From a virus, in IMG/VR virus record IMGVR_UViG_3300025849_000087, positions 1 through 38,738 of that record: a DNA stretch of 38,738 nt, one strand, 5' to 3'. The notes below the pieces were generated by a model, which was not told the DNA's origin, searched no databases, and saw only the letters and a program-made list of their open reading frames with translations. The position numbers and the translations under genes were made by a program. Position 1 is the stretch's first letter. Each line of letters starts with the position of its first letter. Of this stretch, positions 6,098 through 37,340 are shown in pieces.

Positions 6098-7556
6098 CTT
6101 TAAGTACACATTCTATTAAGCACTCTGAGTCATCATTACATGATTCTAACGCTATTCCTACTAATCCAGTAGTTGCAATAGTTGAAGCAATACCATCTTG
6201 CCAAGCATAAACTGCCATGCCTTTTGAAACAGGGCCTTTTACTCTTACCGGAACACGACCTTTAAGTGCAACTGCTTGGCCTTCTGCTGCACTGTTCATT
6301 AAGTACGCCGGTTCTGCAGATATAACACCTACTACTATATCACTTGCTTTTGCTGGACGTACTTCTGCTGTGCCACCTACAGCAACAATAGTGCCTGTTG
6401 GTAACTCGTCTTCTGTTGAATAAACCTCTGCTAAGTCAGCATACTGTGTTGAAGTAGCAATACCTCTAAAGTATCTTGCTTCCATATCGCCATTTGCATC
6501 ACGCAATGCTACAGTGTTTGCTGTATCTTGTGTTGTAGGATAATATACATTACCTGTAAGTTTTAATCCTGATGCGCTTGTTGCATTTCCATCAAAATCG
6601 TCTGCATATACAGTTGACCATTTGTTAGTTGTTGTTCCTAATGTTATACCAAGATCTCCAGGAGCAACACTTGATTGTTTTATATTCATTGGATTGTAAG
6701 TTATGCCCGCTGCTTCAACATATATTCCTATAGTATTGCCAACTTTTTGTGTAATTTTTGCAGTATTACCGTCTATGTTAACTAGTAAATCATCATCGTC
6801 ACCTACTGTAAATCCAGCATCTACAAAATCAACAACGGATGTAAAATTTAAATTTGTTGTAGTTAAATAATCACTAGCAGGTGAGCCGCCTAATCTATCA
6901 GAATTTGTTGCTGTTCCCCAAAATCTTGCTGATGAACTAGTAACTCCGCCTACTGCATTTTGTGTATCAACTAATGTAATACCTTGATTAATTCTATCAA
7001 ATCCGGTTATTGCATCTGCTGATGCAATTGTAAATGTATCACTACTAATAATTGCAGTTGTTGTATCATTAACAGTTGCAGCAATAACACTGTGTTGAGT
7101 ACTAGGAGTAGCAGTATCATTAAGTACTAAACTACGCATCTGTGTTATATTACCTGCACCTGTACTTTGTGGGCCTACAAGGACAAACCCGCCTGAACCT
7201 TTTGCATATAATTGTTCGTTTGTTGTATCCCACCAAAAGTCGCCTTGGACTAAGCCTACTGGTCCTGGTTGTGGTCCTACTTCTGCGCCGCCTGCTGTTC
7301 TCCAAGCTGTTCCGTCATAAAATTTTAATTTTTCTGCACCTACAGATGCATCAAACCATAGCTGCCCTTGTATAGGTTTGCCAGGTGATTGGCTGCTTGC
7401 AAAATTTTCTAATAAATGTACAAAATTTTCATTTTGTACTTCGCCGTATCCAGCATAGTTTTTACCTACAAGTTTAAGATCTGTGGCATTATTAATAGTG
7501 CCATCATCTACTGTAGTTATGAATTGTCCTCTAAAGTTATCTATTTGATATGCCAT
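6093..7556 (-). CDS. Tail-fibre-like protein with a peptidase G2-like C-terminus
   Basis: This 487-residue protein has three visible parts. Residues 1-130 are the module shared with the next two fibre genes: GKN-x-GYGE, then ENFVHLLENFAS, GQLWFD and a second GDFWWDTT with a YDGTAW strand. The middle is a Thr/Asn/Ser-rich beta region with a repeat-like character. Residues from about 365 to the end (QYADLAEVYSTEDELPTGTI, then VVGVISAEPAYLMN and GRVPVRVKGPVSKGMAVYA) resemble the peptidase G2 / intramolecular-chaperone type C-terminal domain found on some phage fibres and tail spikes. Such domains can cleave themselves after helping trimer folding; cleavage here is an inference. It would form part of the host-contact periphery. 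It has its own late-promoter-like octamer upstream. Confidence 0.75.
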   Translation of the reverse strand: MAYQIDNFRGQFITTVDDGTINNATDLKLVGKNYAGYGEVQNENFVHLLENFASSQSPGKPIQGQLWFDASVGAEKLKFYDGTAWRTAGGAEVGPQPGPVGLVQGDFWWDTTNEQLYAKGSGGFVLVGPQSTGAGNITQMRSLVLNDTATPSTQHSVIAATVNDTTTAIISSDTFTIASADAITGFDRINQGITLVDTQNAVGGVTSSSARFWGTATNSDRLGGSPASDYLTTTNLNFTSVVDFVDAGFTVGDDDDLLVNIDGNTAKITQKVGNTIGIYVEAAGITYNPMNIKQSSVAPGDLGITLGTTTNKWSTVYADDFDGNATSASGLKLTGNVYYPTTQDTANTVALRDANGDMEARYFRGIATSTQYADLAEVYSTEDELPTGTIVAVGGTAEVRPAKASDIVVGVISAEPAYLMNSAAEGQAVALKGRVPVRVKGPVSKGMAVYAWQDGIASTIATTGLVGIALESCNDDSECLIECVLKV

Positions 7557-12083: not shown

Positions 12084-12091
12084 TATTTATT
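12084..12091 (-). promoter_or_regulatory. T4 late-promoter-like octamer
   Basis: AATAAATA on the minus strand matches seven of eight bases of the T4 late consensus, 30 bases before the ATG at 12054. The TAA stop codon of the giant gene (12089-12087) is part of the octamer. It would let the fibre genes be transcribed independently of the 15.5 kb gene. Confidence 0.55.
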
Positions 12092-24000: not shown

Positions 24001-27000
24001 GTATTACTAAAGTTTTTAATATATCCACTGTTTAACGGAGTTTGTATTTTACCTTGCGATGTTGCAGGTGGAAAAGATGCTAATCCTGGTCTTGCAAATT
24101 TTTCACGCACAACTAAAGGCTTGCCTGGCTCTCTAACAAATCCTTTTTCAAGATCTGACCACATTGGAATGTTATCACTTGTATAAGGTGCAGGACCGTA
24201 CACTTTATTCCACCAGTTAGGCTTAATACTAAATCCTAAAATTTCCCAAGGATGTGTATGAGGACGATCTGTATCATATGCATCTTTATAAATACCTCTC
24301 CAAAATCCTAACAATGGAGTGTCGCTTGGACTTGTACTTGCAAAATAATTAAATGTAAATGCATTAGCACTTGAATAAAAATCATTATTAGTATAATCTG
24401 GATTGCCTACAAGTCCTAACCAATCAATAAAATCATCTACATATGCATTATCAATTTGTTGATGATTAAATTTAGTTTTTCTAAATTCGCCGCCTACATA
24501 ATCATATATGTTAAAAATACTTTCGTCGTACTTAACTTTAATGTTATTGTAAATACGCATTTCTAGTTCAAATAATAAGTTATCTCTAAAATCATTATAT
24601 CCAATTCTTATACTTCCGTCATGACCTTGGATAACAGTTTGAGGTTCTAAATATGTTTCATCTATATAGATACTAGGAACATATGCTGGATATAATCCTA
24701 ATTTACTAGGTGTTGGAGGGATAAAACACCCATCAGTATTACTATATTCACAAATAGTAAGTATATCATCATACGCTACAGTATAATCATCTTGTAGCAC
24801 AACAAAGCCGTCATCATTAAATGTATAATCTTGCATATATGCTAGTTGAACATTATTATGATATACGTTTACACTTCGTATACTAAGTTCTGTTAAATTA
24901 AATTTTGTGTTTAACGGATAAAATCTATTATTTGTATCAAATACTGTATGATCAGTTGAATAACATGGACCATACCCTAACATATCACTAAAGAAGAACG
25001 GCATAGAATTATTTTTATTGATATTGATAGCTTCTAACACTTTATCAACATGTTCTTTTACATCGCCGTCCCAGCCTAAATTATTTGCAACATCTAAAAA
25101 GTGTCTTTTAAATTTTCCGTATTCACGTTTGTTAAATTCTATTGCAGTAATAATATTAGCACTTTCATCATTTAAATGAAAATTTGCAAAATTAATAGGC
25201 GCACTATGTTGTACAAAACGCTTACCGTGTTTAGCAACTAGTCCTGCATCTCTTAATTTACTTACACCAGGAAAATTACCTTTAAGCTCAAGCTCTTCAA
25301 AAATTGTTGATACATGATCATTCATTTCGCCAAATGTAAATCTCTCAATATTAAAATTATCAGGATTGTTTGATAAATTAATAGGTGTTTCATAATGACC
25401 ATTGTCATTTTTAGGTGAAGCACTATGAGTTTTTATTAACACAATATCATCTTTAGTTGCAGGGGTACTAAGTATAACATTTGCAGTATTGTTAATTGAT
25501 GTAATTGTATAATCAGTTATAAGTTTATTATTTTTGTATACTCGTGTCCACAAATCAGATATGTTTGCACTATTATCATAAACATCTATAGGAAATATAG
25601 TTTGTAAATCTTCTGCAATAGTCTGATTTATTACCGGCTGTCTACTTAGATAAGGTGCCTTTTCCCAAGCATTTTTATATTCAAACGTATCACGGCCGTG
25701 ATATTTTCTAATTAACAAATTATCTGTTGACACAGTTTGCTGAATATTCCTTACAGTATATTCTATAGTATCTGAAAGTAAGTTAACATCAAATTCTATA
25801 TCGCCTATATTTTCAATACTTCTATATGATAGAGCAAACCCAAGTTCGCTATCAACTACACCACTACTAGTTTTATAAGATATTATCTTTGTACCAATTT
25901 GAGATACATTTTCTAAAGTTTGTGTACTTTCACCTTCTTGTGTAAATAGTTCAAAAAACGGTGCTTGGTTAACTGAATTTTTATTTTGTGATGCAACCCA
26001 ATCTGTACCATTAAAATAAAACATCCTACCTTGAAAATTTATACCACTTTTTATTAAAACAGTTTCATTTATTAATGGGTCTGTATCGGTAGTTTCTTGA
26101 AGAGATAATTGTATGTTATTAATAAATTGTAACTGTTTAACTTCGTAAATTTTATTTTTTACTAATACATCAGTGTCACCTGTAAACAAAATACGCATGC
26201 CAGGAACAATATCAATGCCGTCGATATTATATGACGACTTACCTTCAATGATACTGAATACATCTGTAGTTATGTTATCAATTAAGTCAACATCTTTTTT
26301 AGTAATAGTACCAAAGTTACTTAATTTAAGATTAGGTTCAAATTCAATAATAGGTTTTTTTGCTTTTAATGATTCGTTAATAATCGGTATCTGATTATTA
26401 GCAGCAGCAGAAATTTCTATTACTGATTTATGAAACCATTTATTACTTCTTGCCCAATAACTTTTATCTTGGCTAGCTCTGTTACTTACAATATAATCTT
26501 TTGTGCCAGCGTATCCACTTGCATCATCAAATGGTAATCTATCAAATAGTTCGCTATCAAACGGAACATTAACATCTGTATTATAAGTAGTCGGAATATA
26601 TAAATCTTCTTCAGCTATTAATGTAATTTTGTTACCAACACCTTCAACATACCATTCTTTAGTAGCATATGTTTCGGGATACACTGTACCTGTAAATCTA
26701 ATCTTCATACCATTAGATAATTCAATACCGTTACCACTTGTATATTTTTTCTTTCCTATAACTTCATCTAATACATTAATCTCAGATGCATCTTCAACAT
26801 CTATTATTTTAAAAATGCCGCTTTGGTTTATATCGTTTTGATTTACATAGTATAATACTTCAGGAGCAGTTGTAGAAACTTTAATAGTTAGTGTTTGACT
26901 ACCGTCCTCATGAAAAACACTTGTTATACCGTCAGTATATTTAAATTCATCAGTGCCCGGGCGCTGAGTTCTAATTTGCATCGGCATGCCAGGAGTATTA

Positions 27001-27617
27001 ATTTCAAATACATATGTTTGACCTTTAAGTAATTTTAAATCAGGATTACTTGTGATTCCATTTGGAGAAAATACATATGAATAATTATCAACATTATCTT
27101 TTTTAGTAACAGTATAAGTGCTTGTATTTTCAATGCTGTTGCCTGCAATAGGTACAGTCTGTGGACCATAAGGTAACCAATAATATTCTCTATAATTTAT
27201 AAATTTATCAAAATCAATATGAGGATCAAATGAATAATATTCCTGTTCATTTAAATTAGAATGATTTGAAACAGTACCTTTTAAGTTTTTAATTTGATTA
27301 ATATAATCGATATAATCTTTATAAAAGTTTACATTATCTAATTCGTCAACACTAATTGTTGCTGGTCCGAATTGATAATTATTCCTTAAACTATTTGTTT
27401 CAGTAGCATAATTATCTGTTGCTGTAAATGCTTTAGCTGTTTTTAATCCATAATATGCATTTAACTTTTCAGCAGTACCTTGTTGTATTAATTGATCAAC
27501 TGTTGCTGATAAAAACTTTTTGTTTGGAAGGGTTCTAAAATACTTAGGAATAAACTTATCTGATTTGTTATTGTCATCACTAATCGGATATTCATTTTGA
27601 TTATTATCGTATGCCAT
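12087..27617 (-). CDS. Giant virion structural protein (5176 residues)
   Basis: This single uninterrupted reading frame fills 15.5 kb. The N-terminus (KFIPKYFRTLPNKKFLSATV, then DQLIQQGTAEKLNAYYG) is of the kind seen at the start of very large structural proteins in marine T4-like phages. By eye it has: four short W-x(6-9)-Y-x-x-G-(D/Q/N/T)-(I/L)-V modules like small carbohydrate-binding repeats near 1425, 1682, 2160 and 2763; strands resembling FG-GAP-type propeller blades (for example AVAISPDSKYIAVGSPDD, GSNLLISS) between about 2126 and 2977; GSGY/GGGGTGATA modules near 3446-3518 and 3820-3883; a Leu/Ser/Gln coiled coil at about 4250-4543; and five (G/A)DG(S/T)TxxF-type modules near 4077, 4130, 4612, 4705 and 5057. 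The gene follows gp6 after two bases. It probably forms an outer baseplate or side-fibre component that contacts the cell surface. Only a weak ribosome site is seen, so coupling to gp6 is likely. Confidence 0.85.
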   Translation of the reverse strand: MAYDNNQNEYPISDDNNKSDKFIPKYFRTLPNKKFLSATVDQLIQQGTAEKLNAYYGLKTAKAFTATDNYATETNSLRNNYQFGPATISVDELDNVNFYKDYIDYINQIKNLKGTVSNHSNLNEQEYYSFDPHIDFDKFINYREYYWLPYGPQTVPIAGNSIENTSTYTVTKKDNVDNYSYVFSPNGITSNPDLKLLKGQTYVFEINTPGMPMQIRTQRPGTDEFKYTDGITSVFHEDGSQTLTIKVSTTAPEVLYYVNQNDINQSGIFKIIDVEDASEINVLDEVIGKKKYTSGNGIELSNGMKIRFTGTVYPETYATKEWYVEGVGNKITLIAEEDLYIPTTYNTDVNVPFDSELFDRLPFDDASGYAGTKDYIVSNRASQDKSYWARSNKWFHKSVIEISAAANNQIPIINESLKAKKPIIEFEPNLKLSNFGTITKKDVDLIDNITTDVFSIIEGKSSYNIDGIDIVPGMRILFTGDTDVLVKNKIYEVKQLQFINNIQLSLQETTDTDPLINETVLIKSGINFQGRMFYFNGTDWVASQNKNSVNQAPFFELFTQEGESTQTLENVSQIGTKIISYKTSSGVVDSELGFALSYRSIENIGDIEFDVNLLSDTIEYTVRNIQQTVSTDNLLIRKYHGRDTFEYKNAWEKAPYLSRQPVINQTIAEDLQTIFPIDVYDNSANISDLWTRVYKNNKLITDYTITSINNTANVILSTPATKDDIVLIKTHSASPKNDNGHYETPINLSNNPDNFNIERFTFGEMNDHVSTIFEELELKGNFPGVSKLRDAGLVAKHGKRFVQHSAPINFANFHLNDESANIITAIEFNKREYGKFKRHFLDVANNLGWDGDVKEHVDKVLEAININKNNSMPFFFSDMLGYGPCYSTDHTVFDTNNRFYPLNTKFNLTELSIRSVNVYHNNVQLAYMQDYTFNDDGFVVLQDDYTVAYDDILTICEYSNTDGCFIPPTPSKLGLYPAYVPSIYIDETYLEPQTVIQGHDGSIRIGYNDFRDNLLFELEMRIYNNIKVKYDESIFNIYDYVGGEFRKTKFNHQQIDNAYVDDFIDWLGLVGNPDYTNNDFYSSANAFTFNYFASTSPSDTPLLGFWRGIYKDAYDTDRPHTHPWEILGFSIKPNWWNKVYGPAPYTSDNIPMWSDLEKGFVREPGKPLVVREKFARPGLASFPPATSQGKIQTPLNSGYIKNFSNTLIKTKFKFGDLAPIESAWRRSSDYPYALIKSLIINRPAHVFGIGFDRSRISRNFAGQLVYGDTNKRITLKSLLFPNSTSDLSRVQTAGLVNFVANLIHSNVNTSYAQYQETFKGLENKLGLRVAGFTNKDKFNLILDSRTPLNEGNVFVPTENYSIHLNKSTAFDIATYSGVIIEKQQAGFVVRGYDRFNPVFTIHTPISSNKDLVISEGGTSESFVEWNSGKTYLQGNLIRYEGRFYRAKADHTSGETFDTTLYVVISEVPIVGGVSATIAREFNTQPSYVDYGTTYASIQEVIDFLAGYEYYLKKSGFIFESFNPETETVQNWRMSIKDFLFWTTQNWQENSVITLSPAAETLKFYKEDFIVDNIFNELYSTVPLNSNGKPINPANLSYSRIEKEFILQPKDTAEGIYLAKLPLTQKEHIVTLDNTTIFQDVIYNPAPGYRQERIKVLGYRSSDWDGSTNVPGFIIDDPICYDWEPNTDYTIGTIVKYKEYYYVAKQHAPGVTNFSLDTWTILDKKPEPGMFPNFEYKANQFADFYDLDTDNFDVEQQRLAQHLIGYQKRRYLENILKDDVTQYKFYQGYIKEKGSLNALTKLFDSIGTSTNSLEFYEEWAFNAGTYGAIDGIKETEFVLDEKKFQLSPQPIELVNRDSGTNLDLIYRQSKDDVYLSDNDYNPASVFPVHATSPKEVIATAGYVHSDDVKYEIANYSDLLTLTASDLQLDDYIWIGNNLNNTWDVVKVENTSLTFTAVEDGVQTRLNFDNAHGLSVNDIFIIPTTDSTEVLRTVKKVENNSVYVNVLDDITIEFLPIRKFISHRFETISALATVMGSDLQDATVWIDSVNNNWAVYKRQYENYRKVWNFDNDEGSTAWAIDYDTDKRNTITIAGSPLDGTVEVYARGTDSIAMQLEGVIEKQSNLSNGNSFGKAVAISPDSKYIAVGSPDDTEIKTNLVGPWNNATAYSAGQIVKHNDSYWSAIRNTLPEIASQNYSSFAAYPDIKDNLDDSTEPGFLLAANYPKTNTLGDHFLLRATQAEYAAVFVGSKINLNWLQYSVSHINPLLAREPFENTVIGLDGAFLTGEHIIADKVDMILSVNLALNLPTVGDIIDTGTGKGTISYLYPDGNGFIIYLNTTSGVFTPTGTLTLTTGVEIGEYVYETPDSTHSDLGGYWKIDIGSSVLFRDVIVDNAPGLIISDIRPSNYVGGLNGFYSIGNDIGSKGTIQNGNDKLSLIGRFKAPDDVSVTNITDYGSKWFIRLGPTAPNYTLVGQTIRLAENTFLQTAPWENLQLVNNVNLPIFEGVHLVREYIDGYVKVQIQTDAAGTHSFQEGDTLEDANTGALLDVIYADWDAGFQTQTLYVNYISGTASLGSDYADSTRVIRKRAGLVDRDAGFLVESSIYTATNDISKLIVFDSRDELGAPPSYAFPPSQTYVVEGYEFWIVPETRVEVGAGRPADEPLSTNSNWVFTNSIPVTSSGGTLYDGVGYVSVYERIEAGAYELDKQFVIPLGFDAVGAQLKFAYFNDMYVLYVSASDKIIFVKKGTENNVTYDWEVSLDKNFRGFYSNSQDYYTGDIVLVNNQLYVATTNISQSAFNAAQWTIVDNDIDYTGYIPRITPDGSTVTAGTDTAIAIGYNGFGNDYQLSENGNVLAAYVSRDDSSTSVTIDDEVSVYRYSNNSYRLSETITIVDNSINDEEYKHSFALSNDGTQVAIGFHKENADGASIVNGGLVKVYKYTNGVWTLTNTITSPLHESNEAFGRNVEFIGSNLLISSLYGDKTVTRKFSDGTYFDNNFTSFTETQYNVGNLYLFENIEDQFLYAGILEDALDISKDFKVNGHHLYSKINNTLVNYKWNGVANWIKHREALPVVDINKFKGPFLYDKSKQEFIDYIDIIDPIQGRIAGPAEQELRYKTKWDPAIYTNVDENDSVTVDAFKSWGISQVGELWWDISTAKFKNPYQGNPQYQTNTWNTQFAGSSIDVYEWVESNLSPSEWREIADSEDGLSNGISGIPKYNNDTYVLKKKYDSILQSFSNLYYFWVKNKKTLPTVKERQVTSYDVTQYISDPRLFGYKYVELQSPNRYVINNSLLDIKGRDTILNFTWWTIPNQQLNIHNQYQIISDGLYTSVPSTELKTKWFDSLVGFDKNLKEVPDPNISPKLRYGNLTRPRQTWFVNRLEALKVVIERANMALRKQIIIDDFDLSGLNTRDDAPSIYSREYDYNVDAEIDVQFIGTNKFKQAVLTPVLDNGRLINVVITDPGFGYIDLSYTSGTRQGPNVIVVGTGTNAQVETTINSQGQIITATVTSNGSGYDNNTIINVRGLRALVDSDSTIANKWSILEYNPVLMSWQRVKTQNFDTTLYWKYVDWYATNYNQFTSANHTLEYSYELESLNDAIGDIVKINNTSDNTWLLLKKIDDQNSVDYSINYETVGRENGTIEIDKGLYNFSGTISGFDGYAFDTTIYDGVPISETRNILSVLFDNIFVDNLAVEYNKIFFASIRYILSEGQKPDWLFKTSFVKAKHNFGELEQRINYQNDNLKNYQEYINEVKPFKTKIREFVSSYSKLEKSQSQITDFDLMPWYNPNTGKITPKTATIENGSIVLQDGDKYPWKSWFDNATYYIDKIELAETGTLYTSTPIITFEGGGGTGATAIAYISRGKISAIDVTNPGSGYTSAPKVVFNGSQSEGGKAANATAIIKNDTIRKINTTIKFDRVSGKLQYLDLNKSQTFTSLSQQTTFTLKWPMDLDSLTVSISVNGEESLVSEYTYSNVIDTSLGYTIYKGTIEFATGVAGGAIVVVNYKIDPAMLTAGDRIHNLYKPTSEMPGYDTTIQDLSQVLDGIDYGGVEITSFDFDTEAGWDASGWYNDSWDEYDSTFEDEVFRADGSTSTVQLSKALEDGVVYNLYKNGVRIDATDFVAGSSATNVYAITNSITGDGTTTELDVSDYNIVENDVFVVRKSTSDGAFVPDLLSFDTQLSGGNFSYGNASGHDAGEIIIDGDGFVTVSSSRSTDEHVPGQVLDTVDIKVFDRTGDGQGIIVTRTHTFNADAEYAALAARNSELSSLELDAIAQDSTLNSLQTQLISLQQELTSLQSELVSLEAQRDANDLTTSQYQSYITTINNLTSTITSLQSQLSSLQSQKSSIDGQISTLEGQISSLQSQISSLQSQISSLEGQISSIDSQISSLTSDLGNYLPGSSEYISIQNQINSLQSQRVSLQSQLSSLHSQLISLQSQLSSLQSQLSSLQSQSSSLGSQIIALNSDIINYQGQKSSTEDLRDAYEIQYNSYVVLVTNKQSEVTAQNGLVSTKQSQVDNQNTVIANLQIAKDNKQLEINAAQAVIDALNVPLDIGATPIKDDNLIVRITGGNLVTKNRIVGKEEYSIDYINKTILFNNVLESGTTITTMVVGTNGSKILDTGTFIGDGSTAQFLTKIQHQDKMSAFVSVDGEKRSTVTAQGTVADVKIVKSSAEYAYEGTVIFEFGEAPADGALINYTLYDSDTQTFSEITIDEFTADGSTTNFELSQIPFTGIPLDVNILVIDNNNVLHTGYKTKFTATIANFYPISNWHVPYLSQTSNDISVYINGELKTNTIDYRWLSESSTLELFNNFYNVGDTVELYTKNESYELVGNEIRLVNVPDNGKILVYQFSEHNVLETERKTVSSIKRSSLVVGSDDWKEYAETSLGIINLKTNILSENYIWIALNGELLSPTIDYIVRDDRESVQITRSIANNDKFDIIHYTSPVSTKRFGYRQFKDVLNRTHYKRINSYTETILSKDLNYTDLRIEVIDGTILDEPNKTLNLPGIIFINGERIEYFIKEDNVLRQLRRGTLGTGVNTFVKAGSTVSNQGAIETIPYQDKTLIQEFEGDGSTTDFTLNFSAQYGVDQFEVFVGGKRLRKTTLQKFNHLLDQTSPAADETLLAEFSVHGTEDNILRLLNTPIDGQKIKVVRKIGTQWREEGVALKESKTAISSFLRESTTKLPE
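14286..14411 (-). repeat. Tandem 21-base repeat, six units, coding for coiled-coil heptads
   Basis: Six direct units of 21 bases stand head to tail, with few differences between the first four. On the plus strand each begins TTGACTTTGTAAACT or a close variant. Each unit encodes one heptad LSSLQSQ, at about residues 4403-4444 of the giant protein, with leucine at positions a and d. Because the unit is a multiple of three, gain or loss of units keeps the frame. Confidence 0.9.
14488..14655 (-). repeat. Second block of 21-base repeats, eight degenerate units
   Basis: Eight 21-base units, more degenerate than the first block, share the plus-strand core CTAGAAATTTGT. They encode heptads such as ISSLQSQ, ISSLEGQ and ISSIDSQ at about residues 4322-4377 of the giant protein. 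A Gly/Pro-containing break (LGNYLPGSSEY, about residue 4387) separates this block from the first. Both belong to one long coiled coil. Confidence 0.85.
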
Positions 27618-27619
27618 TC

Positions 27620-30600
27620 TTAATTATATTCCCCGGAGCTAAAATTTGCTGCTGAGCTTTGTATGCCCACTATAGAACTTGTATCACTAGTAATAACGTT
27701 GCCAGATGCTTTAAGTCTTGTTGCTGTTATTGCAGATATAACTTCAACATCGTCAACTTGTGCTGCATTTACAAATATTTCATCATCTTCTGCCTTTATT
27801 TCAAACAAACTACCAAATGTTTGATCTACACTAGTTGGAACAATAACAAAAGTTTTTAAATTTGGAGCCATTTGCTGTGTTACATATGCTGACAATTCTT
27901 GGAAATAAAATGTATCTCCAAAGTCCCAATTTTCTAATGCAAAAAATTCATTCACATATGTAATTACATCTGCTTTTAATTGGTTATCTGTTATGACTAC
28001 ATTTTCATTTTTTACTATTTTAAATTTTGCTTGTAACAATGTAGGTGCCTTTTCTCCGAACAAAGGTTTATATTTTACAGGATGATAAATTACTTCATCA
28101 CTAAGTGATTTTTGTTGATTTATTATTTGTCCAAAGTTTAAAAATAGTTGATCTGAACTTAACGGCAAAGGCGCAGTTTCTATCGATCCTTTTAAATATT
28201 TTCTATATTCAATATCGAATGTTTTTGTTAGTAAGTAAGTATCAATTATATTAGTACTGCTAGGATCAATTCTATAATTTTGATCTGCATTATGTATATA
28301 TTGGAATTTAATATTAGATCTACCAACATATGATTTATAGTCATTTGTTATTTCTAATATACCATTTTCTATTTTATAAAAAGCATTTGTTGATGTATTA
28401 TAAAAAACATCACCTTCGTTGTAACCTGCAATTATAATATCTAAATTATTAACTTTATAAACATTTGTACCAGGTGTGTATCTATAATCTTCTACTTCAG
28501 AAGATGGATTATATTTTTCTAACATAATAATTTTTTCAGATGCATTAATATTTGGTAAAACAATTTGTTCAAATATATCAGGATCGTCAACTACACCATC
28601 GTCGTCATTATCAAAAAAGTTAACTTCTATTTTTTTACTACTAATGTACCCTTCGCTATCCCTATATGACTCAGATATTTCCCAATCAAAATCTGTTGTT
28701 AATGGGTTAATTTCTTGAACATCTAATTTAGTGTTAATGTTTAATACTCGTATAGTATCAATTATTGTATTACCAGTTTTATTGTTATATATTTTATCTC
28801 TGCCATCAAAGAAAAATCTTACTTCTTCGTCTGATTCAAAAATATATCTCATAGAGCGTGTAGTAATTGTGTATGTATTACCATTAGTTTCAAATAATAA
28901 CAACCAACTTGCGTCTAAATTTTGTGATGCAGTGTCACCGGCTCTACCTAGCCCAAATTCGTTTACAAAATTAATATTGTCTTCTGTAATAATTTTCCAT
29001 CTTTCAACAAGATAATCATATCTTAATGCAAATGTCTTGTAAGTAAAAATTCTATCAATCATTTGTGATTTAACATCTGAACTGACTACTGTTGTAAGTG
29101 CTGGTATAATTTCTGCAATCGTTGGATTAATATTTGTCAACGACGGTATAATTTCGTTAAAAACAATATCTCCAGCATTGCTGCCATCATTTGCAACACT
29201 GATTACTTTAGCCCAAATATATTCAACCTGGCCTGCGTGTGGGTTGGCGGTGTTTGACATTAATGTAACATTGTTAGAAGTTTTCATAAAATGGAAGCCT
29301 GCAGGAGGAACAAATTTTACCATAGATCCAACAGTAAGATATTTTAAGCTAGTAGATGTAAACCCTCCAGTTTTTAAACTTAGGCCATCTAAATTTGCAT
29401 CTGAAAATGATCCAGAACTTTCATTAGTACCAGACGAAAACTGTGTCCATATATAATTGTTTAAAGAAAAATCAATTCTTGTAAATTTATCATAATAATA
29501 ATTTCTAAGTTGTTTCTTTGTAAGTATCGGTTGTATTGTATTAATTATTAAATTTTCAATATCATTACGAGTAGTAAATGTTAATCCATTTCTATCTAGA
29601 TAGTATTCTTTATACAACACACCGTCATTACCATATATATTTGTTTTTGAATACTTTCCTGTAGAATCAATTAAATCAAAATATCTACTTATACCACTTG
29701 AAGTTCTATTTACACTTTTTGTTTTTATTATTTCTTGACTTATTGTGCTTGGCACAATATTATAATCTTCAGCCGTAACCATTCTATTTTGAGTATAATA
29801 AACTGCTGGAGCATTTAACTTAATACTTTCGTTTGTTTCAGATGATGCACTATTCAAGACAGAATATTTTAAACTTAATTCAAATGTTAATGTTTCTTCT
29901 ATTCCTTCTGAAGAAAGATAATCAATGTCAATTGTAATTTTTTGCATACTATTAGCAGTAATATTTAATGACGAGTTTGCACTAGTTCTAAAATAACTTT
30001 TAAATGATCCTTGAGGAAGGTTTCCGAATATTCCGTCACTAAAGACTAAATCAATTTTATCATCTAAACGTGTAACTACGCTATAGATATTTTTTTGTGT
30101 ACTTGATAAGTTATTGTAAACAGCATTGTTTCCTGTTGCACTATCAACTTTTTCCCACAAACCAGTTTCAAACCCGGATGTGTTTAATTGGTATAACCAA
30201 ACATCTGTATTATTAACGTTATTAGTTTCAATGCTAATTACTTGATTAGTTGACGGTGTGTCAATTGTAAATGTTCCGTCTTCTAATAACCCTTGTTTAA
30301 AGTGCATAAAGAATCCAGTGTTTGAACTACCGAAACCTTTGTTATCATCTCTATAGATAAATCCTAAATTATTTCCTGCTAATGGTGGTTCTTCGATTAT
30401 TTCATCAGATGTTAGTTCAGCTGAAACAACTTCAAACGGAATATTTTTCCCATCAATAACTTTTGAAAATCTATAGATCGGAAGATCAGTTGACGATCCG
30501 TTTAATTTATACTGTTGCGAAGATATATTGTTTACTTTAGCACTCTGTCTTGGGCGGCCAAATTTATTTGTTGACGGCAATGCTGCATTTAAAATTTTTG

Positions 30601-31069
30601 TAAATTGCTCGTACCAGTCAGGGTTAGTATTATCATTCCACAACACACTTTGACGACTAATATTTGATCCATTTGCATCTATAACATCTTCTGTAGTTTT
30701 AATTGACTCGACTTTTAATAAGCCACTTGCAGCTAAATTACGTTTTGCATTATAACTTAACAGCCTAGCTAATCTTAATATAGATTCCCTACGTTCTGCA
30801 AGCTCAAGAAAGTTTTCACGAGAATTTAGATCAATACGGAACGAAAGATTTTGACCTAAAAAACAAATCATATCAATTAACGCAAGATATTCAGATGACT
30901 CAATATAATCGTTAAAATCTTCTGGATAGTTTTCTCGTAGATAACTAATCATAGTTCGTCTTAGGTTATCAAAATCATAACTTTTAAAGTTTGCATTACG
31001 GAAAGATTGGTAAATTCTCTTCCAATCTTCAGCAACTAAAAGTCTGTTTTGTCTATCGGTTGATGACAT
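27620..31069 (-). CDS. gp6: Baseplate wedge protein gp6
   Basis: This 1149-residue protein is the T4 gp6 homologue of the baseplate wedge. The first 110 residues are highly characteristic: YDFDNLRRTMISYLRENYPE, DFNDYIESSEYLALIDMICF, then LGQNLSFRIDLNSRENFLE and AERRESILRLARLLSYNAKR. The central part (VYYTQNRMVTAEDYNIVPST at about residue 420) matches baseplate J/gp6 family proteins. The C-terminal third has the ALENWDFGDTFYFQELSAYV stretch near residue 1055. gp6 dimers join the wedges into the ring that surrounds the hub. At 1149 residues it is much longer than T4 gp6 (660), mostly from extra beta-rich insertions. A GAGGA ribosome site and a late-promoter-like GATAAATA precede it. Confidence 0.95.
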   Translation of the reverse strand: MSSTDRQNRLLVAEDWKRIYQSFRNANFKSYDFDNLRRTMISYLRENYPEDFNDYIESSEYLALIDMICFLGQNLSFRIDLNSRENFLELAERRESILRLARLLSYNAKRNLAASGLLKVESIKTTEDVIDANGSNISRQSVLWNDNTNPDWYEQFTKILNAALPSTNKFGRPRQSAKVNNISSQQYKLNGSSTDLPIYRFSKVIDGKNIPFEVVSAELTSDEIIEEPPLAGNNLGFIYRDDNKGFGSSNTGFFMHFKQGLLEDGTFTIDTPSTNQVISIETNNVNNTDVWLYQLNTSGFETGLWEKVDSATGNNAVYNNLSSTQKNIYSVVTRLDDKIDLVFSDGIFGNLPQGSFKSYFRTSANSSLNITANSMQKITIDIDYLSSEGIEETLTFELSLKYSVLNSASSETNESIKLNAPAVYYTQNRMVTAEDYNIVPSTISQEIIKTKSVNRTSSGISRYFDLIDSTGKYSKTNIYGNDGVLYKEYYLDRNGLTFTTRNDIENLIINTIQPILTKKQLRNYYYDKFTRIDFSLNNYIWTQFSSGTNESSGSFSDANLDGLSLKTGGFTSTSLKYLTVGSMVKFVPPAGFHFMKTSNNVTLMSNTANPHAGQVEYIWAKVISVANDGSNAGDIVFNEIIPSLTNINPTIAEIIPALTTVVSSDVKSQMIDRIFTYKTFALRYDYLVERWKIITEDNINFVNEFGLGRAGDTASQNLDASWLLLFETNGNTYTITTRSMRYIFESDEEVRFFFDGRDKIYNNKTGNTIIDTIRVLNINTKLDVQEINPLTTDFDWEISESYRDSEGYISSKKIEVNFFDNDDDGVVDDPDIFEQIVLPNINASEKIIMLEKYNPSSEVEDYRYTPGTNVYKVNNLDIIIAGYNEGDVFYNTSTNAFYKIENGILEITNDYKSYVGRSNIKFQYIHNADQNYRIDPSSTNIIDTYLLTKTFDIEYRKYLKGSIETAPLPLSSDQLFLNFGQIINQQKSLSDEVIYHPVKYKPLFGEKAPTLLQAKFKIVKNENVVITDNQLKADVITYVNEFFALENWDFGDTFYFQELSAYVTQQMAPNLKTFVIVPTSVDQTFGSLFEIKAEDDEIFVNAAQVDDVEVISAITATRLKASGNVITSDTSSIVGIQSSAANFSSGEYN

Positions 31070-31120: not shown

Positions 31121-31558
31121 TTATATTAATCCGTTGTTTTGATCAAATGTAAAACGTAGAGACTCTGTAATATTATACGGCAGATATGTAAGCGTTGTTT
31201 CAATTTGCAACCCATTTTCATAATCAGTTACAATTACTTCTTCTATTGTAACTCTAGTGTCATTTTGTAACACACGGTTTACATCATCTATAACTGCTTC
31301 TTTTAGCTCTTCAGTTAACGGCTCAAATAAGACATCCCAAATAATTGTTCCAAAATTAGGATCACTTAGTTTTTCTCCCTTACGTATATGAAAATGATTT
31401 ATAATGTCTTGTTTTATAAGTGCAATATCGTTTAATCTGTAAGTTTTATTGTTAGGATTTATTGTGCTAAATCCTTTATACCAAGATTGTACAGATTGAT
31501 CTGGAGTACTATTATTTTTAGTAACTTTTACTGTTTTGTATAAATTTTTCTGTGGCAT
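31121..31558 (-). CDS. gp25: Baseplate wedge protein gp25
   Basis: This 145-residue protein is the T4 gp25 / GPW family wedge component, also related to the TssE sheath-initiator of type VI secretion. The identifying stretch is IKQDIINHFHIRKGEKLSDP followed by NFGTIIWDVLFEPLTEELK. The second half has the VTIEEVIVTDYENGLQIETT strand pair. gp25 sits where the wedge meets the first ring of the sheath and starts sheath assembly; its length is close to T4 gp25 (132). An AAGGAAG ribosome site precedes its ATG and it begins nine bases after the end of the peptidase gene. Gene order gp25 then gp6 is the usual T4-like arrangement. Confidence 0.95.
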   Translation of the reverse strand: MPQKNLYKTVKVTKNNSTPDQSVQSWYKGFSTINPNNKTYRLNDIALIKQDIINHFHIRKGEKLSDPNFGTIIWDVLFEPLTEELKEAVIDDVNRVLQNDTRVTIEEVIVTDYENGLQIETTLTYLPYNITESLRFTFDQNNGLI

Positions 31559-31567
31559 TTTACTTCC

Positions 31568-32368
31568 TTAAACTGTACTATCTTCTGCACCAGCACTAAT
31601 AGTTGATCCGTCTATAGGCACATCTAACTCTGCTGGTATTGCCCAGTTACGTCTAATAGTTAGTGTGTATTGACTGTTTGATTCAAATCTATAGTTTGAT
31701 ATTTTTGCATTGTCACCTTGGTTGCCGCCAAGCACTTTGAAACGTTTATTTTTTGTATCTACTTCCCAAACAAACCCTACATGGCCGCCGCCTCTAGTTT
31801 TTGATTTAAATACAACAACATCTCCTTTACGAATCTGTGATGTATTACGCCAAGCAACTTCTGTACCATAATTTTTGTATGCTTGCGAACTCATAGATTT
31901 TAAACCGCCTATTCCTGCTTCTTCTAAGGCCCAACTTACATAAGCAGCGCACCAAGCAAATGCCATAGAACTACTATCTCTTTCGTATGATTGATTACAT
32001 ACTCTATATGTTTGCAATATTCTTGGATTACCTGGATTACCTTTTTCAGTCCAATCCTGTGATAAACAATTTTGTAATAACGCCACAAGTCTTTCATATC
32101 CAGGATTTTGCGGAACAGGCCCTGTAACTTCTGCACCTGGAATAGTGCCTTGTTCTTGACCCGGAATGCCTCCTGATTCTATATCTTGTCTTCCACTTTG
32201 ATTAGAATAAGATAAAAATTGTTGGTTAGTTACAACGTCTCCTTCGAGATTTTGTTCAAACTCACCGTCATAATTAAAACGCTGTGATTCTGTATTAGGA
32301 ATCTCATCAGTGTAGATTGGAATGTTAGGACTTATAACTTCACTTGCTGGTATTACTACATTACACAT
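31568..32368 (-). CDS. CHAP/TIGR02594-type cell-wall peptidase or amidase
   Basis: This 266-residue protein carries, in its last 180 residues, a Cys-His peptidase domain of the TIGR02594/CHAP kind. The nucleophile candidate is Cys140 in MAFAWCAAYVSWALEEAG, the histidine is His196 in GGGHVGFVWEV, and the polar third residue is Asn216 in VLGGNQGD. Such enzymes cut peptide or amide bonds of peptidoglycan. The first 90 residues are low-complexity and proline/glutamine-rich (PGQEQGTIPGAEVTGPVPQ), which may tether the domain to the virion. It has no signal peptide. It lies between the spike gene, whose stop it overlaps in a TAATG junction, and gp25. It is therefore likely a virion-associated lysin and not a holin-dependent endolysin, though the latter cannot be excluded. 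Confidence 0.75.
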   Translation of the reverse strand: MCNVVIPASEVISPNIPIYTDEIPNTESQRFNYDGEFEQNLEGDVVTNQQFLSYSNQSGRQDIESGGIPGQEQGTIPGAEVTGPVPQNPGYERLVALLQNCLSQDWTEKGNPGNPRILQTYRVCNQSYERDSSSMAFAWCAAYVSWALEEAGIGGLKSMSSQAYKNYGTEVAWRNTSQIRKGDVVVFKSKTRGGGHVGFVWEVDTKNKRFKVLGGNQGDNAKISNYRFESNSQYTLTIRRNWAIPAELDVPIDGSTISAGAEDSTV

Positions 32369-34956
32369 TATCCAAATCCTCTATCATCTATAGGAGCATT
32401 ATACCAAGTACTATCTGCATCAACTACTGCAAAGAATTGCTGATCATGATCTCTACCTAATTCATATCCTCGTTCAGTGCCAGCAATACAAAGTCTCATG
32501 TTACCTAATATGCCTCTTCCTTTATCTTTATATCTATCTTTCAAATATGCAGCACAAACATCACACGAAAGTTTAAAATTAGAAAGAAGTAATCCTGGAT
32601 CATCTACAATATCAACACCAAATGGATTATTGTCTGTAATCGGTGCATTTGTTAATCCTGCAAGTTTTCCGTAACGCTCATAATTTCCTTTACCGGTTAG
32701 CTGAATAAGTCCTCTACCGAGATAGTTTCCTCCATCACCTTCTACATTATTGCCCATACCTGGTCCTATTGTACTTTGATAACCGTATACTAATTCAAAA
32801 AACTGGAATTTATCTTTTTTAATTTCAGTTAATTGTGAATCGCTTACAGTTCTTGATGCACTAAAAATACTACGTATTCTGTCATTACTTGTTCCGCTGT
32901 AACTTGATTCTTCAGTAGCATTAATTTGACTTTCAGTATTTGCACATGCAATAGCTGCTTTTACAAATTCTTCATTAAATCCTGCTATAGTTCTTAGTGA
33001 AGCTGCAAATATTCTTGCACGTTCTTTTTTGTCTGCAATTTCTTCAGGTGTACCAGTTGGTATTTGTGAGCCGCCTAATGTAGGTGAAGATGTAACACCG
33101 CCGGGTGTATTACTTGCTGCAATTGACCCGTTTGGTGCAACACTTCCAGCTACATTTGCTGCTGTTCCTAAAGGTGCATTTGTACCTGTAACATTACTAT
33201 TTCTTAAAAATGTATCAGGAGTCTGTGGCGGATAACTATCTATAGGCGTTTTACCTGCTTCTGTATTTTCAGGAGTATACGCTGCTGGATTTAAGTTTTC
33301 ATGTTCATACCATGGTTCGTGTCCAGGGCGACGAGTTGTCTGTAATGCTTGTTGTGGCGGAACTGGAACAACTGGAGATGCAGAATCTGCAATTTCTGCA
33401 TCGCCTGCTATAGCTGCTGTGCCAGCTGCTGGTCCGTTTAAGTGTATTTCTGCACCAGTTTGTGTAATGTTTGCACTAGCTCGTAAATCTAAGCCGCCGC
33501 CGGCTGCTGTTACAAGTGCTGCTGTGCCGGCATGTATGTCTGTTTGCTCTCCGGACGATAATTTAGTGTTTGTTGCAGATTTGACATCTATAGCAGCATC
33601 CGAATTTACGATTAAATTACCAACTGCTTTAACATGTCCATCGCCATCAGTTGTAATTTTTAAACCAGCACAAGCATCTATATTCATATTACTAGTTGTA
33701 CCTAAAAATAAATCTTTACTACTCTGTAAAGTCATCTGATCTTGCGAAATTAGGGTTGTACTTTGTTCACTATATAAAGATAAAGTACTTTGTGCATTTG
33801 CATTAAAACTTGTACCTGCACTAAAAGATGTATGTGTTCCTGTTTTTACATTTCGCTGATCGCCTGCAGATTCGCTATGATTTCTACCAACAACAGTATT
33901 CATATCTCGTATTGCAGTAAAATTAATATCTCTATCTGCGGTGAAATTTAAATCTTGCGCACTATGTACACTAATGCTATCTTGTGCATAGATGTCAATT
34001 TTACCGTTTGCTGTTAATTCTATCCAACTACTGCCACTACCATGAGATATGTAAACTAAATCTTCTGTATTATGAAGTAAAATTTGATGACCTGTTCTTG
34101 TACGTATTCTTGTAAGTTCATTTGCAGGTAAAGTTTTATCTCCACCTGATTCACCAGCACGTTGATTGGTATATTCCATAGGCGTATCTTTAGCCGGTCC
34201 TCTGCGTAACTGGGTTTCGTCACCGTCGTCCATTACAAAACTAGAACCGCCTAAACGATTTACAGGTATTGTAGCTTTGTGCTCTTTATCTCCGTATCTA
34301 ACCTTAGGTGCGCCTGGTCTTTTGTCTAACGGCCCGGGTGTATTCCATCCATAAACATTAGATACTGCTCCTCGTCTAGCAGAAGTAGTACTAAGTCCTC
34401 GAACTTCGTCTTTATCTAATCCTTGATCAAACATTCTATTTGCATAATCAACGTTGACTGGTTTGTTATAAGCAGTTGGATGGTCACCTCTTGTTTCTAA
34501 TAGTTTGTTAAATTCACCTACAGGTAATTTTGTACCTGTACTGTTGTAAGAAGTAGAAGCTCTACCGTCAGGAACCATAAAGTTCATATGTGTATCTTGT
34601 ACACATCCTATCCAATATCCTTGATTAATTTTTCCTTCAGCAAATATTACAAGGACTTTTGTTCCAATGTCTGGCGGGACTGCCCAAAATCCGTAACTTT
34701 TTTGTGTAGCATTGTATTGATCTTTTTTGCCGCTTCCTGCAAGAGGACTAACTCCGTAAAACGGACTTAGATATTTTACCGTTACTAACTGTCCTGACTT
34801 TTCAGGACTATTTCCTGATGATGAACTTTTTAGTAATTCAACTTCTAAACCACCTCCGTAATACGGATCTAGATGACTTACTATAAGTGCTTCGTAAGGT
34901 CCAGCATTATGTAAATCAGGCGTCAGTGCTTTTTTATTACTGCGTTTATCTTTCAT
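32368..34956 (-). CDS. gp5: gp5-like baseplate spike with C-terminal GH19 hydrolase
   Basis: This 862-residue protein is arranged as an N-terminal OB-fold (about residues 20-130: YGFWAVPPDIGTKVLVIF, then GYWIGCVQDTHMNFMVP), a beta-helix-like repeat region (about 295-510, with HSAQDLNFTADRDINFTAIR type repeats like gp5 and VgrG needles), a Pro/Thr-rich linker, and a GH19 domain (about 655-862). The GH19 features are Glu675 in ACANTESQI, Glu682/683 in ATEESSYSG, and GGNYLGRGLIQLTGKGNYER near 745. GH19 enzymes cut beta-1,4 links of peptidoglycan or chitin. In T4 gp5 the lysozyme is of the GH24 kind and sits between the OB-fold and the needle, so here both the enzyme family and its place differ. 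It would puncture and digest the cell wall at the tail tip. It is joined by TAATG overlaps to the genes on both sides. Confidence 0.85.
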   Translation of the reverse strand: MKDKRSNKKALTPDLHNAGPYEALIVSHLDPYYGGGLEVELLKSSSSGNSPEKSGQLVTVKYLSPFYGVSPLAGSGKKDQYNATQKSYGFWAVPPDIGTKVLVIFAEGKINQGYWIGCVQDTHMNFMVPDGRASTSYNSTGTKLPVGEFNKLLETRGDHPTAYNKPVNVDYANRMFDQGLDKDEVRGLSTTSARRGAVSNVYGWNTPGPLDKRPGAPKVRYGDKEHKATIPVNRLGGSSFVMDDGDETQLRRGPAKDTPMEYTNQRAGESGGDKTLPANELTRIRTRTGHQILLHNTEDLVYISHGSGSSWIELTANGKIDIYAQDSISVHSAQDLNFTADRDINFTAIRDMNTVVGRNHSESAGDQRNVKTGTHTSFSAGTSFNANAQSTLSLYSEQSTTLISQDQMTLQSSKDLFLGTTSNMNIDACAGLKITTDGDGHVKAVGNLIVNSDAAIDVKSATNTKLSSGEQTDIHAGTAALVTAAGGGLDLRASANITQTGAEIHLNGPAAGTAAIAGDAEIADSASPVVPVPPQQALQTTRRPGHEPWYEHENLNPAAYTPENTEAGKTPIDSYPPQTPDTFLRNSNVTGTNAPLGTAANVAGSVAPNGSIAASNTPGGVTSSPTLGGSQIPTGTPEEIADKKERARIFAASLRTIAGFNEEFVKAAIACANTESQINATEESSYSGTSNDRIRSIFSASRTVSDSQLTEIKKDKFQFFELVYGYQSTIGPGMGNNVEGDGGNYLGRGLIQLTGKGNYERYGKLAGLTNAPITDNNPFGVDIVDDPGLLLSNFKLSCDVCAAYLKDRYKDKGRGILGNMRLCIAGTERGYELGRDHDQQFFAVVDADSTWYNAPIDDRGFG

Positions 34957-37340
34957 TAAAATCCTCGTATAATACCACGGTTAATATCTGCTAAACGATT
35001 ATTAACATTTTCTGTTCGAGCTGTTTTTGCTAAAGCTACTTGTTCTTTAATTGTAGGGTTATCTTGTGCATTTGCTGCTGCCGGAGTTCCTGTTGCTCTA
35101 CCTGTATTATCTAACACTGCGGATTGGCCGTTAAATTGTTTGTATACGCTTTGTCCTGTTGATCTTCCTTCTTGATTAATTCTACGTATGCATTCTAATT
35201 CTTGTGTAAATTTTCCGCCAGCCCATCTTGATTGAACTTTAATTACCTTATATAACCCACTAAACGGTTCTACAGGAACTGTATCTTCTGGAAAATCCAT
35301 AAGTCCTGTATTATCATTATAATCAATTGGAGTTCTAAAATTTATAATAATATCAACTTCACTTCGTTGATAATCCATTTGTCCGTCTTGTGTAATATTT
35401 AATGTTCCAGGTCTACTATTATAATTTCCCATTCCGCTGTCAGACAGATAATAAGGATCTCCCATAATATTAAAAGTAATTGTAACTAAATCAACCCGGC
35501 TGTTTACTATACTATCATGGAAAGATCTAGCAACTCTAGTAGCAACGCTTTCATTGCTACCGCCTCCTATGTTACCAGTACCGTGTGTTCCTGTTCTACG
35601 TATACCGCCGCCGTTTTGGCCTGCAGAACCGCCTTGGCTAACTGTTGCTTGAGCTTCTCCGGTTGCACTTGTACTAGATTTTGTAGAAGTAACACTAGTT
35701 GCTGAAAGTGCATCACCGTCAGCACTTACTGCACTAAAAAATTGATTATTTAGATTAATTTCAAAATCTAATATATCATTATTTGCACCGGTATAGATAT
35801 AATCATATTGTTTATTAGCAAGTTGTTTTAATCTTTCAAATCCTGGAGCAGTTTGTGTTGGACTAGAAATTGTTGCTAGATGTACTTTATATGGTACAAC
35901 TTTATATACATAAATTTTTGGTGTTGTACCTGTTCGACGTTGTTCTTCAGCATCTGCTATCGGATATACTTCGGTTTCAATTTTAAACCAATCAACCATT
36001 CCAACAGAATCAGGACGAGGTTCGGCAAATTTTTTACCGTAATCACTAATAATTACAAGTTCTTCAATAATATCTTGTATTTTTGAACCTTTAGGAAACG
36101 TATAAGTTCTTAAATCATGACTTACACTCATTTTATCATTTTCAAATAATAATGTTTCTTCGTTATAAGTTAAACCTGCTTTATTTAAAGGATGATTTCC
36201 TGGAACATCAATACTATCTGCAAGTGTAGATTTACCAATACTATTAACATTGCCACCTATATTCTCTTTTAATTTTCCCGATATGTTTGATTTACGTGCA
36301 ATATATTCTTTTGAGCTTTGAGTAACTGCTGCTCTATTAGTTGAATTTCCGATTCCAATGCCTAAATCTCCAATATTAAATCTAGGTACACTAGGAGCAT
36401 TGCCGTTTTGTGTCATATCATAAAGTACACTCTGTATATTACCTCTGCTATCTGCTGATCCTGCGCTACCGCTGGTAGATGCAACATCTTCAGGAAAAAT
36501 AATTACAAATTCACTAGGTCTAGCTCCTTGTCCTACTTGAATTTGTTCTAACAGTTGTGAATTAATTGTAGCGGATAAACTTTGGGGACCTGACTCTAAA
36601 ATTTCATCTAATGTAGATCCTGTTAATTCGACATCATTAGTCATTGTTTGTATTGCATTAGTAAGACTAATTTCATTATACGGAACTGCGGTGACATCAT
36701 ATACAGTGCCGCCGCCAGTAACATTCATATCCATGTTTACTATTTTAAGAGGAAAAAATCTTTTACTTACACTACCAATAAAATTGCCATCTTCATCTTG
36801 ACCTAAAAATTCTAAAGTAAGCAATAGAGGAGTTTCGAGATAATTTCTATATTCTTCAGCAGCAGCAATTTGTAGAGTTTGTAAAAATAAACCCATGCTA
36901 TACGGTTCCATTACTTTAAACTGAATGTTAGTAGCATTTGTAGCTCGCTGAGAAGTAGTTGGTGCAATAATTGCTTCAATGTCTATATCATCTATAAAGT
37001 ATTCTAATCTTCCAGATTCGCCTTCATATGCAGTTATAGCTTTTGTTGCTGCTAATCCTCCGCCACTTTGTAATATTGTCTTTACACTTTGACCTGCTCT
37101 ATAAGTTTTTTCAGGATATGCCATTTGAGTACTTGATAATACTGCTAAAGTAAATTTAAATGTTCCGTTTGAAAATTGTTCTAATTCGTTAGATTGTTTA
37201 CCCGTGGTACCTATACTACTACTAAACTGCGGTATTATAGATTGTTCATATTCGCCGTCATTAAATTCTCGTGCTGTTTGATTGAGCTCGTTTGTTCTGC
37301 CTGCAACATACGCTTTGATAATATCGTCACTTGATACCAT
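34956..37340 (-). CDS. Baseplate hub candidate (gp27-like by position)
   Basis: This 794-residue virion protein is probably a hub component. It starts MVSSDDIIKAYVAGRTNELN. Residues up to about 240 have a mixed fold including EYFIDDIDIEAIIAPTTSQR and GLFLQTLQIAAAEEYRNYL. The part near 650-730 (VTITFNIMGDPYYLSDSG, then PFSGLYKVIKVQSRWAGGKF and TQELECIRRI) has the 'short beta domain after a precursor' pattern seen in hub proteins of the gp27/gpD kind. A Ser/Gly-rich stretch (about 550-600) separates these. It lies immediately before the gp5-like spike gene and its stop overlaps that ATG. T4 gp27, the partner of gp5, has 391 residues, so this would be an enlarged version. I infer the role from context; sequence similarity to gp27 is not obvious by eye. 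Confidence 0.6.
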   Translation of the reverse strand: MVSSDDIIKAYVAGRTNELNQTAREFNDGEYEQSIIPQFSSSIGTTGKQSNELEQFSNGTFKFTLAVLSSTQMAYPEKTYRAGQSVKTILQSGGGLAATKAITAYEGESGRLEYFIDDIDIEAIIAPTTSQRATNATNIQFKVMEPYSMGLFLQTLQIAAAEEYRNYLETPLLLTLEFLGQDEDGNFIGSVSKRFFPLKIVNMDMNVTGGGTVYDVTAVPYNEISLTNAIQTMTNDVELTGSTLDEILESGPQSLSATINSQLLEQIQVGQGARPSEFVIIFPEDVASTSGSAGSADSRGNIQSVLYDMTQNGNAPSVPRFNIGDLGIGIGNSTNRAAVTQSSKEYIARKSNISGKLKENIGGNVNSIGKSTLADSIDVPGNHPLNKAGLTYNEETLLFENDKMSVSHDLRTYTFPKGSKIQDIIEELVIISDYGKKFAEPRPDSVGMVDWFKIETEVYPIADAEEQRRTGTTPKIYVYKVVPYKVHLATISSPTQTAPGFERLKQLANKQYDYIYTGANNDILDFEINLNNQFFSAVSADGDALSATSVTSTKSSTSATGEAQATVSQGGSAGQNGGGIRRTGTHGTGNIGGGSNESVATRVARSFHDSIVNSRVDLVTITFNIMGDPYYLSDSGMGNYNSRPGTLNITQDGQMDYQRSEVDIIINFRTPIDYNDNTGLMDFPEDTVPVEPFSGLYKVIKVQSRWAGGKFTQELECIRRINQEGRSTGQSVYKQFNGQSAVLDNTGRATGTPAAANAQDNPTIKEQVALAKTARTENVNNRLADINRGIIRGF

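Follow-up and report, generated by a model that had tools for sequence, protein, structure and literature searches.

The uncultivated viral record IMGVR_UViG_3300025849_000087 of IMG/VR, analysed here over its full 38,738 bases (the window), carries two adjacent minus-strand genes in a baseplate block. They encode a gp5-like baseplate hub/spike protein of 862 amino acids (32368..34956) and a standalone CHAP-type peptidase of 266 amino acids (31568..32368). We consider it probable that both products serve the tail spike as entry enzymes, namely a tethered GH19 domain and a separate CHAP protein on or near the spike, with the apex of the needle acting as a site where lytic modules are swapped. 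Sequence analysis and prediction demonstrated the order of the domains, the intactness of the active-site residues, purifying selection, varied modules on the same needle and one CHAP–gp5 fusion. The position of both genes in a baseplate block common to jumbo phages also supports this reading. The initial annotation of the window had the open reading frames (ORFs), their coordinates and strand, and the residues E675, C140, H196 and N216 right. Its prediction of two enzyme classes, one likely to cut glycan and the other peptide bonds, was also borne out by the domain assignments.

Structure prediction confirmed that the C-terminus of the window gp5 adopts a GH19 fold (residues 639–855; 32392..33042, minus strand, like all features below) with both predicted catalytic glutamates intact. 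The PHROGs family phrog_181 (‘endolysin’) matches residues 689–791 (2.3e-14), and phmmer retrieves solved endolysins of the GH19 kind. A profile built from 20 relatives retrieves 13 PDB sequences, including endolysins, TseP-C and plant chitinases. Pfam PF00182 (GH19) was not among the matches of the window gp5 at E ≤ 0.1; in relatives (loci denoted by L numbers) it scores 26.2 bits for L077, above the cutoff of 25.5, and 23.6 bits for L047, below it. An AlphaFold2 (AF2) model of the domain has a mean predicted local distance difference test score (pLDDT) of 93.6 and a predicted template modelling score of 0.89. Its seven best structural matches (Z 14.4–16.2) are five phage endolysins, one of them titled GH19, TseP-C and a putative phage protein. 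Only this group is discriminating, because GH19 chitinases (Z 8.3–10.3) tie with the lytic transglycosylase MltE (Z 8.8–9.1).

The catalytic acid, whose lack the initial annotation had named as refuting its reading, is present. E675, the predicted general acid (codon 32932..32934), and E683, the predicted second catalytic acid (32908..32910), are each Glu in 72 of 73 distinct GH19 sequences, the remaining one having a gap, and T754 is kept in all 73; this set includes the window and is not limited to gp5 proteins. The two residues align with a Glu pair in 9ms6 and 8xcl, and for TseP-C, which has the same fold, an E663D mutant is described as having lost activity (PMC11893102). A scan of contigs with the GH19 profile listed 80 bacterial or archaeal loci, all partial matches (28–63% over the best segment), to which we attach no origin. 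The match in LR756502 was set aside, since it sits in an 883-amino-acid protein that by eye lies outside this gp5 family. In L050 an extra gene upstream of gp5 (2624–5053; 809 amino acids) contains a GH19-like stretch at residues 492–606, and the gp5 tip there looks like M15.

The assignment of the protein as a spike is based on phrog_13211 (1.7e-51), DUF2345 (7.7e-11; 42.5 bits, cutoff 30.7) and Phage_base_V (3.5e-4; 21.3 bits, below its cutoff of 23.8), which together cover an OB domain and a beta-helix. An N-terminal region with the OB domain (residues 23–207, the extent of the phrog_13211 match; 34336..34890) precedes the beta-helix stalk, which spans approximately residues 290–510 (33427..34089; bounds set by eye) and matches DUF2345 in three stretches, the best at 309–358. 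The helix is followed by the motif HEPWYEHENLNP (residues 546–557; 33286..33321), which is conserved in relatives, and then by an 81-residue low-complexity linker (558–638; 33043..33285), P, G, S, T, N and A making up 73% of residues 557–638. The GH19 domain thus stands after the beta-helix, as first annotated. A T4-style order with GH24 before the helix was rejected because the window gp5 has no Pfam match to Phage_lysozyme (GH24).

At least 597 related stretches were found for gp5 in IMG/VR. EPWxxHE occurs in all 54 distinct complete gp5 relatives, and the full pattern HEPWxxHExx[ND]P in 53 of them. In Paride, whose gp5 has no lytic Pfam match, and in SCTP-2, whose gp5 has 476 amino acids, a corresponding EPCxxH begins only 11 and 13 residues, respectively, before the C-terminus. 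This nearly terminal position suggests that the motif marks the apex of the needle. The gp5 of Atu_ph07 has HEPFxxH; in the corresponding region of RaK2, 121Q, GAP32 and Vibrio 2.275.O gp5 the sequence is HxH, a pattern found in metal-binding spike tips. The Atu_ph07 spike (L100, 3800–6397) carries a trypsin-like peptidase domain at its C-terminus (PF13365, 6.1e-17); gp699 of this phage is termed a predicted lysozyme in its paper. The initial annotation had argued that a lytic domain at the far end of the needle would be exposed first and might be released on contact. The first point is not compelled: 81 low-complexity residues separate apex and GH19, so that the domain would be tethered rather than a rigid point, and some relatives have a PAAR-like protein encoded between gp5 and gp25. 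Nothing that we found bears on release.

The second gene was confirmed by profile and model to encode a predicted peptidase of the CHAP/NlpC type. PF05257 matches it with 42.4 bits (9.9e-11; gathering cutoff 26), and a Cys-His-Asn triad is present, so that the CHAP part of the earlier assignment stands; its TIGR02594 part falls short, at 60.7 bits (1.7e-16) against an NCBIfam cutoff of 70.55. The catalytic domain covers residues 88–250 (31619..32107), with C140 at 31949–31951, H196 at 31781–31783 and N216 at 31721–31723. The model of this region is papain-like: its best match is LysIME-EF1 (Z 10.5), followed by NlpC/P60 and CHAP enzymes. C140 and N216 are kept in 57 of 58 CHAP sequences and H196 in all of them (window included). 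The single exception, in L217 (9660–10685), has Gly for the Cys and Asp for the Asn; the neighbouring gp5 bears a tail-lysozyme module (PF18013) and one that looks M15-like by eye. Residues 1–72 (32153..32368) form a predicted disordered N-terminal tail (pLDDT < 50), in which M1, I6, P7, P14, G43 and D44 are invariant in 22 of 22 sequences. Two further CHAP matches were not used: one in ICP1, a small standalone protein annotated as a hub, and one in CRP-804, an unannotated protein of an autographivirus.

Loss of the Cys and Asn in L217 would fit a reading in which the GH19 and CHAP domains are inactive relics retained for binding or scaffolding. We regard this as very improbable, given the near-invariance of E675, E683 and C140 and the rates of substitution. 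Between the window and L005, the number of synonymous changes per site (dS) is 0.855 for GH19 and 1.299 for CHAP, against non-synonymous values (dN) of 0.098 and 0.032, and dN lies far below dS for both catalytic domains in comparisons with L003, L005, L009 and L010. Since both are conserved in relatives under such strong purifying selection, their reading frames are not due to chance.

Relatives of the window gp5 end at the apex or bear different lytic modules behind it. A sample gathered by homology comprised 63 distinct gp5 rows (one being the window's own fragment, and many being close kin), 57 of them with downstream sequence. CHAP is the next gene in 23 rows with a window-type GH19 and in eight with an SLT1 tip (phrog_27932, transglycosylase-like); gp25 is next in 23 rows with another type of GH19 and in two with M15 tips. 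In one row, L032, CHAP is fused to gp5 and gp25 follows. L012 was counted as window-type GH19 after re-comparison; the M15 label was given by eye for L050 and by PF13539 for L070. A second sample was collected from IMG/VR by searching the DNA for a degenerate form of HEPWxxHExx[ND]P, and comprised at least 120 loci. Removal of nine that run off their contig and six duplicate tails left 105 spikes, 103 of which match the gp5 N-terminus; some contigs occur in both samples. Among these 105 listed spikes, 60 are bare, with a tail of at most 80 amino acids behind the motif, and 41 carry a recognized lytic module there: 17 GH19, nine M15/VanY, six SLT1, five VgrG3C, two SLT2, one CHAP and one tail lysozyme plus M15. 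The remainder are one unassigned class (L192) and three unclassified tips. Module names were taken from representatives, several of them below the Pfam cutoff (VanY, SLT), and spread by phmmer; L182 and the M15 part of L217 were assigned by eye. PF21277 scores above its cutoff in both of the VgrG3C-type spikes that were scanned (L201 and L247). In the first 80 motif loci, the module starts 59–133 residues behind the motif in 28 of 33 cases (full range 19–232). The tips of L294 and L273 resemble, by eye, a GH24 lysozyme and an M15 peptidase, respectively.

Among the motif loci listed, 11 of 43 with a tip domain have a CHAP gene between gp5 and gp25, versus 1 of 55 bare ones (Fisher p 0.0004, uncorrected for kinship). 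By tip, it is found with 5 of 17 GH19, 5 of 6 SLT1 and the single tail lysozyme plus M15. The p-value is not independent evidence, because the association stems mostly from one clade. In the first 80 of the 120 loci no bare needle had CHAP as a neighbour (0 of 41), but this rule fell with L289 once all 120 were considered. PAAR-like genes occupy the interval between gp5 and gp25 in 13 of 98 motif loci listed; the queries were partly drawn from the same loci and labelled by eye, the labels being supported in L212 by phrog_281 and in L014 by a PF05488 match below cutoff. Pfam alone identified PAAR in 1 of 16 records, below cutoff, and similar genes were afterwards found in the slot of others. 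Examples following gp5 (and CHAP) are L014 (9276–9575), L212 (8789–9085) and L180 (451–720). A phmmer search with the L014 protein found no PAAR-like gene in the window, which may be a fragment. Gly/Ala-rich proteins of 402–432 amino acids lie between gp5 and gp25 in L207, L214, L223, L236 and L249.

Trees were built from the N-terminal part of gp5, leaving out the modules, by a quick method supported only by the Shimodaira–Hasegawa-like approximate likelihood ratio test (SH-aLRT). Parsimony counts five changes of module state among 37 rows, 14 among 79 and 19 among 113. For the 79-row tree, the shuffled mean is 38.6 changes; modules are therefore clustered and swaps infrequent. All 21 CHAP-bearing rows (19 contigs; L032, L172 and L198 are identical, as are L010 and L277) are set apart, together with L272, from all other rows by a branch with an SH-aLRT support of 100. 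The L272 contig ends inside gp5, and rows whose locus stops before gp25 were counted as lacking CHAP; the placement of L289 is unsure because its branch is very long. The CHAP gene thus appears, on the evidence of these trees, to have a single origin and to have been retained while the tips changed.

The best evidence that CHAP may work on the spike is the L032 fusion. There the CHAP protein is joined in frame to gp5 and is colinear with the CHAP proteins of L031, L036 and L037 from residue 4 to the end; when only its first 50 residues are scored, it exceeds every one of 500 shuffles in all three comparisons. No standalone CHAP and no recognized glycosidase on gp5 accompany it, and gp25 follows directly.

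Several observations weigh against placing both enzymes on the spike. The fusion is one contig, and its alignment with the L043 CHAP protein starts no earlier than residue 41. Confidence in the CHAP model is moderate (mean pLDDT 70.1; best Foldseek E 0.011), and the L217 homologue lacks Cys and Asn. CHAP and tip enzymes need not go together: L289 combines CHAP and PAAR with a bare needle, L259 has an SLT1 tip without CHAP, and the 5 of 17 GH19 tips accompanied by CHAP in the motif sample are a minority. Among CBB_238/239/240, only CBB_238 and CBB_240 are given as confirmed structural proteins in Rak2-like phages (PMC5259590), and in RaK2 the spike itself was not detected (PMC3622015). Some of these points would suit an arrangement in which GH19 is a spike-borne entry enzyme and CHAP acts outside the virion, in assembly or as an extra endolysin at lysis. 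CBB_239, a non-homologous lysozyme in the same slot, lacks the structural confirmation given to the CBB_240 spike, and CHAP can adjoin a bare needle. Moreover, the protein table of phAPEC6 lists gp241, a lysozyme-family protein of 95.9 kDa with seven peptides, which by size and place is the same spike, and passes to gp244, leaving the two products between unlisted (PMC7247149). However, this arrangement sits poorly with the L032 fusion, with the persistence of CHAP beside gp5 from a single origin and with the failure to recognize a lysis cassette in the window (the scan, with one or both libraries, covered 18 of 19 minus-strand ORFs that reach 80 amino acids, but neither a 5176-amino-acid ORF nor the plus-strand ORFs). 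We consider it unlikely, though it deserves more credence than inactive relics.

We prefer the reading in which both proteins serve entry; the listing of the CBB spike (three peptides) and of phAPEC6 gp241 (seven peptides) among detected proteins speaks for it. In this mechanism gp5 would form a trimeric needle, each chain holding a GH19 muramidase behind the apex on its 81-residue tether, so that up to three copies could reach and cut glycan strands while the needle crosses the wall. The separately encoded CHAP protein would cut peptide cross-links; its disordered N-terminal tail would probably hold it on the spike or close by. Lytic modules would be swapped at the apex, where relatives either stop or bear a different one.

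The initial annotation contrasted this layout with that of T4 and took it to be unusual, but gp5 proteins of the same family that end in a lysozyme are already in print. A 2013 paper presented RaK2 gp078 as a beta-helix that carries a lysozyme at its C-terminus (PMC3622015). For CBB, a 2017 paper describes the CBB_240 spike with a C-terminal lysozyme, CBB_239 as a second lysozyme and CBB_238 as gp25, and includes the spike in its virion protein list with three peptides (PMC5259590). Together with GAP32 and 121Q gp5, these homologous Rak2-like spikes share with the window a lytic domain that follows the beta-helix. The spike gene is followed by another lysozyme gene, which precedes gp25 in GAP32 and CBB and a ‘baseplate’ gene in 121Q; in RaK2 a few small ORFs come before it. 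In Rak2-like phages both the tip and the second enzyme are GH24 (Phage_lysozyme), whereas the window has GH19 plus CHAP. RaK2, GAP32 and Vibrio 2.275.O gp5 also show a sub-cutoff M23 match in mid-protein. T4 gp5 likewise unites an OB domain, a beta-helix and a muralytic domain in one spike protein, but its lysozyme lies between OB domain and helix (PMC3622015), and the window GH19 follows the helix on a linker. The general architecture is thus already published; what is new is the wider pattern of tip modules on a conserved needle. None of the open-licence papers that our searches reached describes module exchange behind a conserved apex, RaK2 and CBB being nearest.

Other systems combine comparable parts. 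The TseP effector of the type VI secretion system (T6SS) unites an amidase and a lysozyme, the latter with the fold of the window GH19 domain (PDB 8XCL, Z 16.0 to the GH19 model; PMC11893102), but both activities reside in one protein. In phage A-1(L), the baseplate hub gp15 has endoglucanase and peptidase domains shown to be active on host cells (PMC10966104); these lie in the hub, not behind a needle apex. Erwinia phage Bue1 (Ackermannviridae) has a CHAP domain on gp5 with gp25 next, but at residues 189–264 behind the OB domain, a T4-like placement. ‘Evolved’ VgrG proteins of the T6SS such as VgrG3 are spikes with a C-terminal lytic extension. The window spike resembles them in that an effector-like domain follows the helix and apex motif. 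Its neighbours, however, are phage baseplate genes and not T6SS genes, and at most it works like an evolved VgrG.

The minus-strand baseplate order of the window is a phrog_12050 protein, a phrog_7145 wedge protein, a phrog_11190 virion structural protein (34956..37340), the spike, CHAP, gp25 (31121..31558, directly after CHAP; PF04965 1.7e-7, phrog_261 and phrog_43) and a gp6-like wedge (27620..31069; phrog_10646 8.9e-279). As annotated, the order up to gp5 is common to the window and the jumbo phages Paride, RaK2, 121Q, GAP32 and Atu_ph07, in each of which a ‘structural protein’ occupies the place that the phrog_11190 gene has here; wedge genes of the gp25 and gp6 kinds come after gp5 in GAP32 and Paride. 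The best tblastn matches of the window gp6 are in the jumbo-phage group (61 records, 15 of which are listed at 33–35% identity over 86–97%). As first annotated, the stop codon of gp5 and the start codon of CHAP overlap in TAATG (32366..32370, read as GGA-TAATG-TGT); because the same overlap links the preceding gene to gp5, such coupling is ordinary here. A 5176-amino-acid ORF (12087–27617, minus strand) follows gp6, perhaps in the position of phAPEC6 gp245, a 382-kDa virion protein listed beside the baseplate wedge gp244 (PMC7247149). Further along on the minus strand are a tail-fibre-like protein with a C-terminal match to the Peptidase_G2 autoproteolytic domain (6093–7556) and, at the window end and close to tail-fibre-like genes, a radical SAM protein (145–1509). 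IMG/VR classes the source record (38,738 bases) as ‘linear’, and records so classed are often fragments.

At roughly even confidence, we propose that in this large, mostly uncultured phage group the needle serves as a shared chassis on which parts are exchanged directly behind the tip. Wall-cutting modules unrelated to one another (GH19, transglycosylases, VgrG3-type and tail lysozymes, M15/VanY and CHAP peptidases) would be mounted there on flexible tethers or omitted, and CHAP as a second enzyme would ride non-covalently, a phage counterpart of VgrG effector loading that is possibly matched to host wall chemistry. The pattern shows where evolution swaps lytic domains on a contractile needle and ties phage spikes to effector loading of the VgrG type. 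It also supplies natural chimeras on the same needle, with bare, GH19, transglycosylase, VgrG3-type or peptidase tips and with CHAP separate or fused, for testing the role of the tip enzyme in entry; the same set could show whether that enzyme tracks host peptidoglycan.

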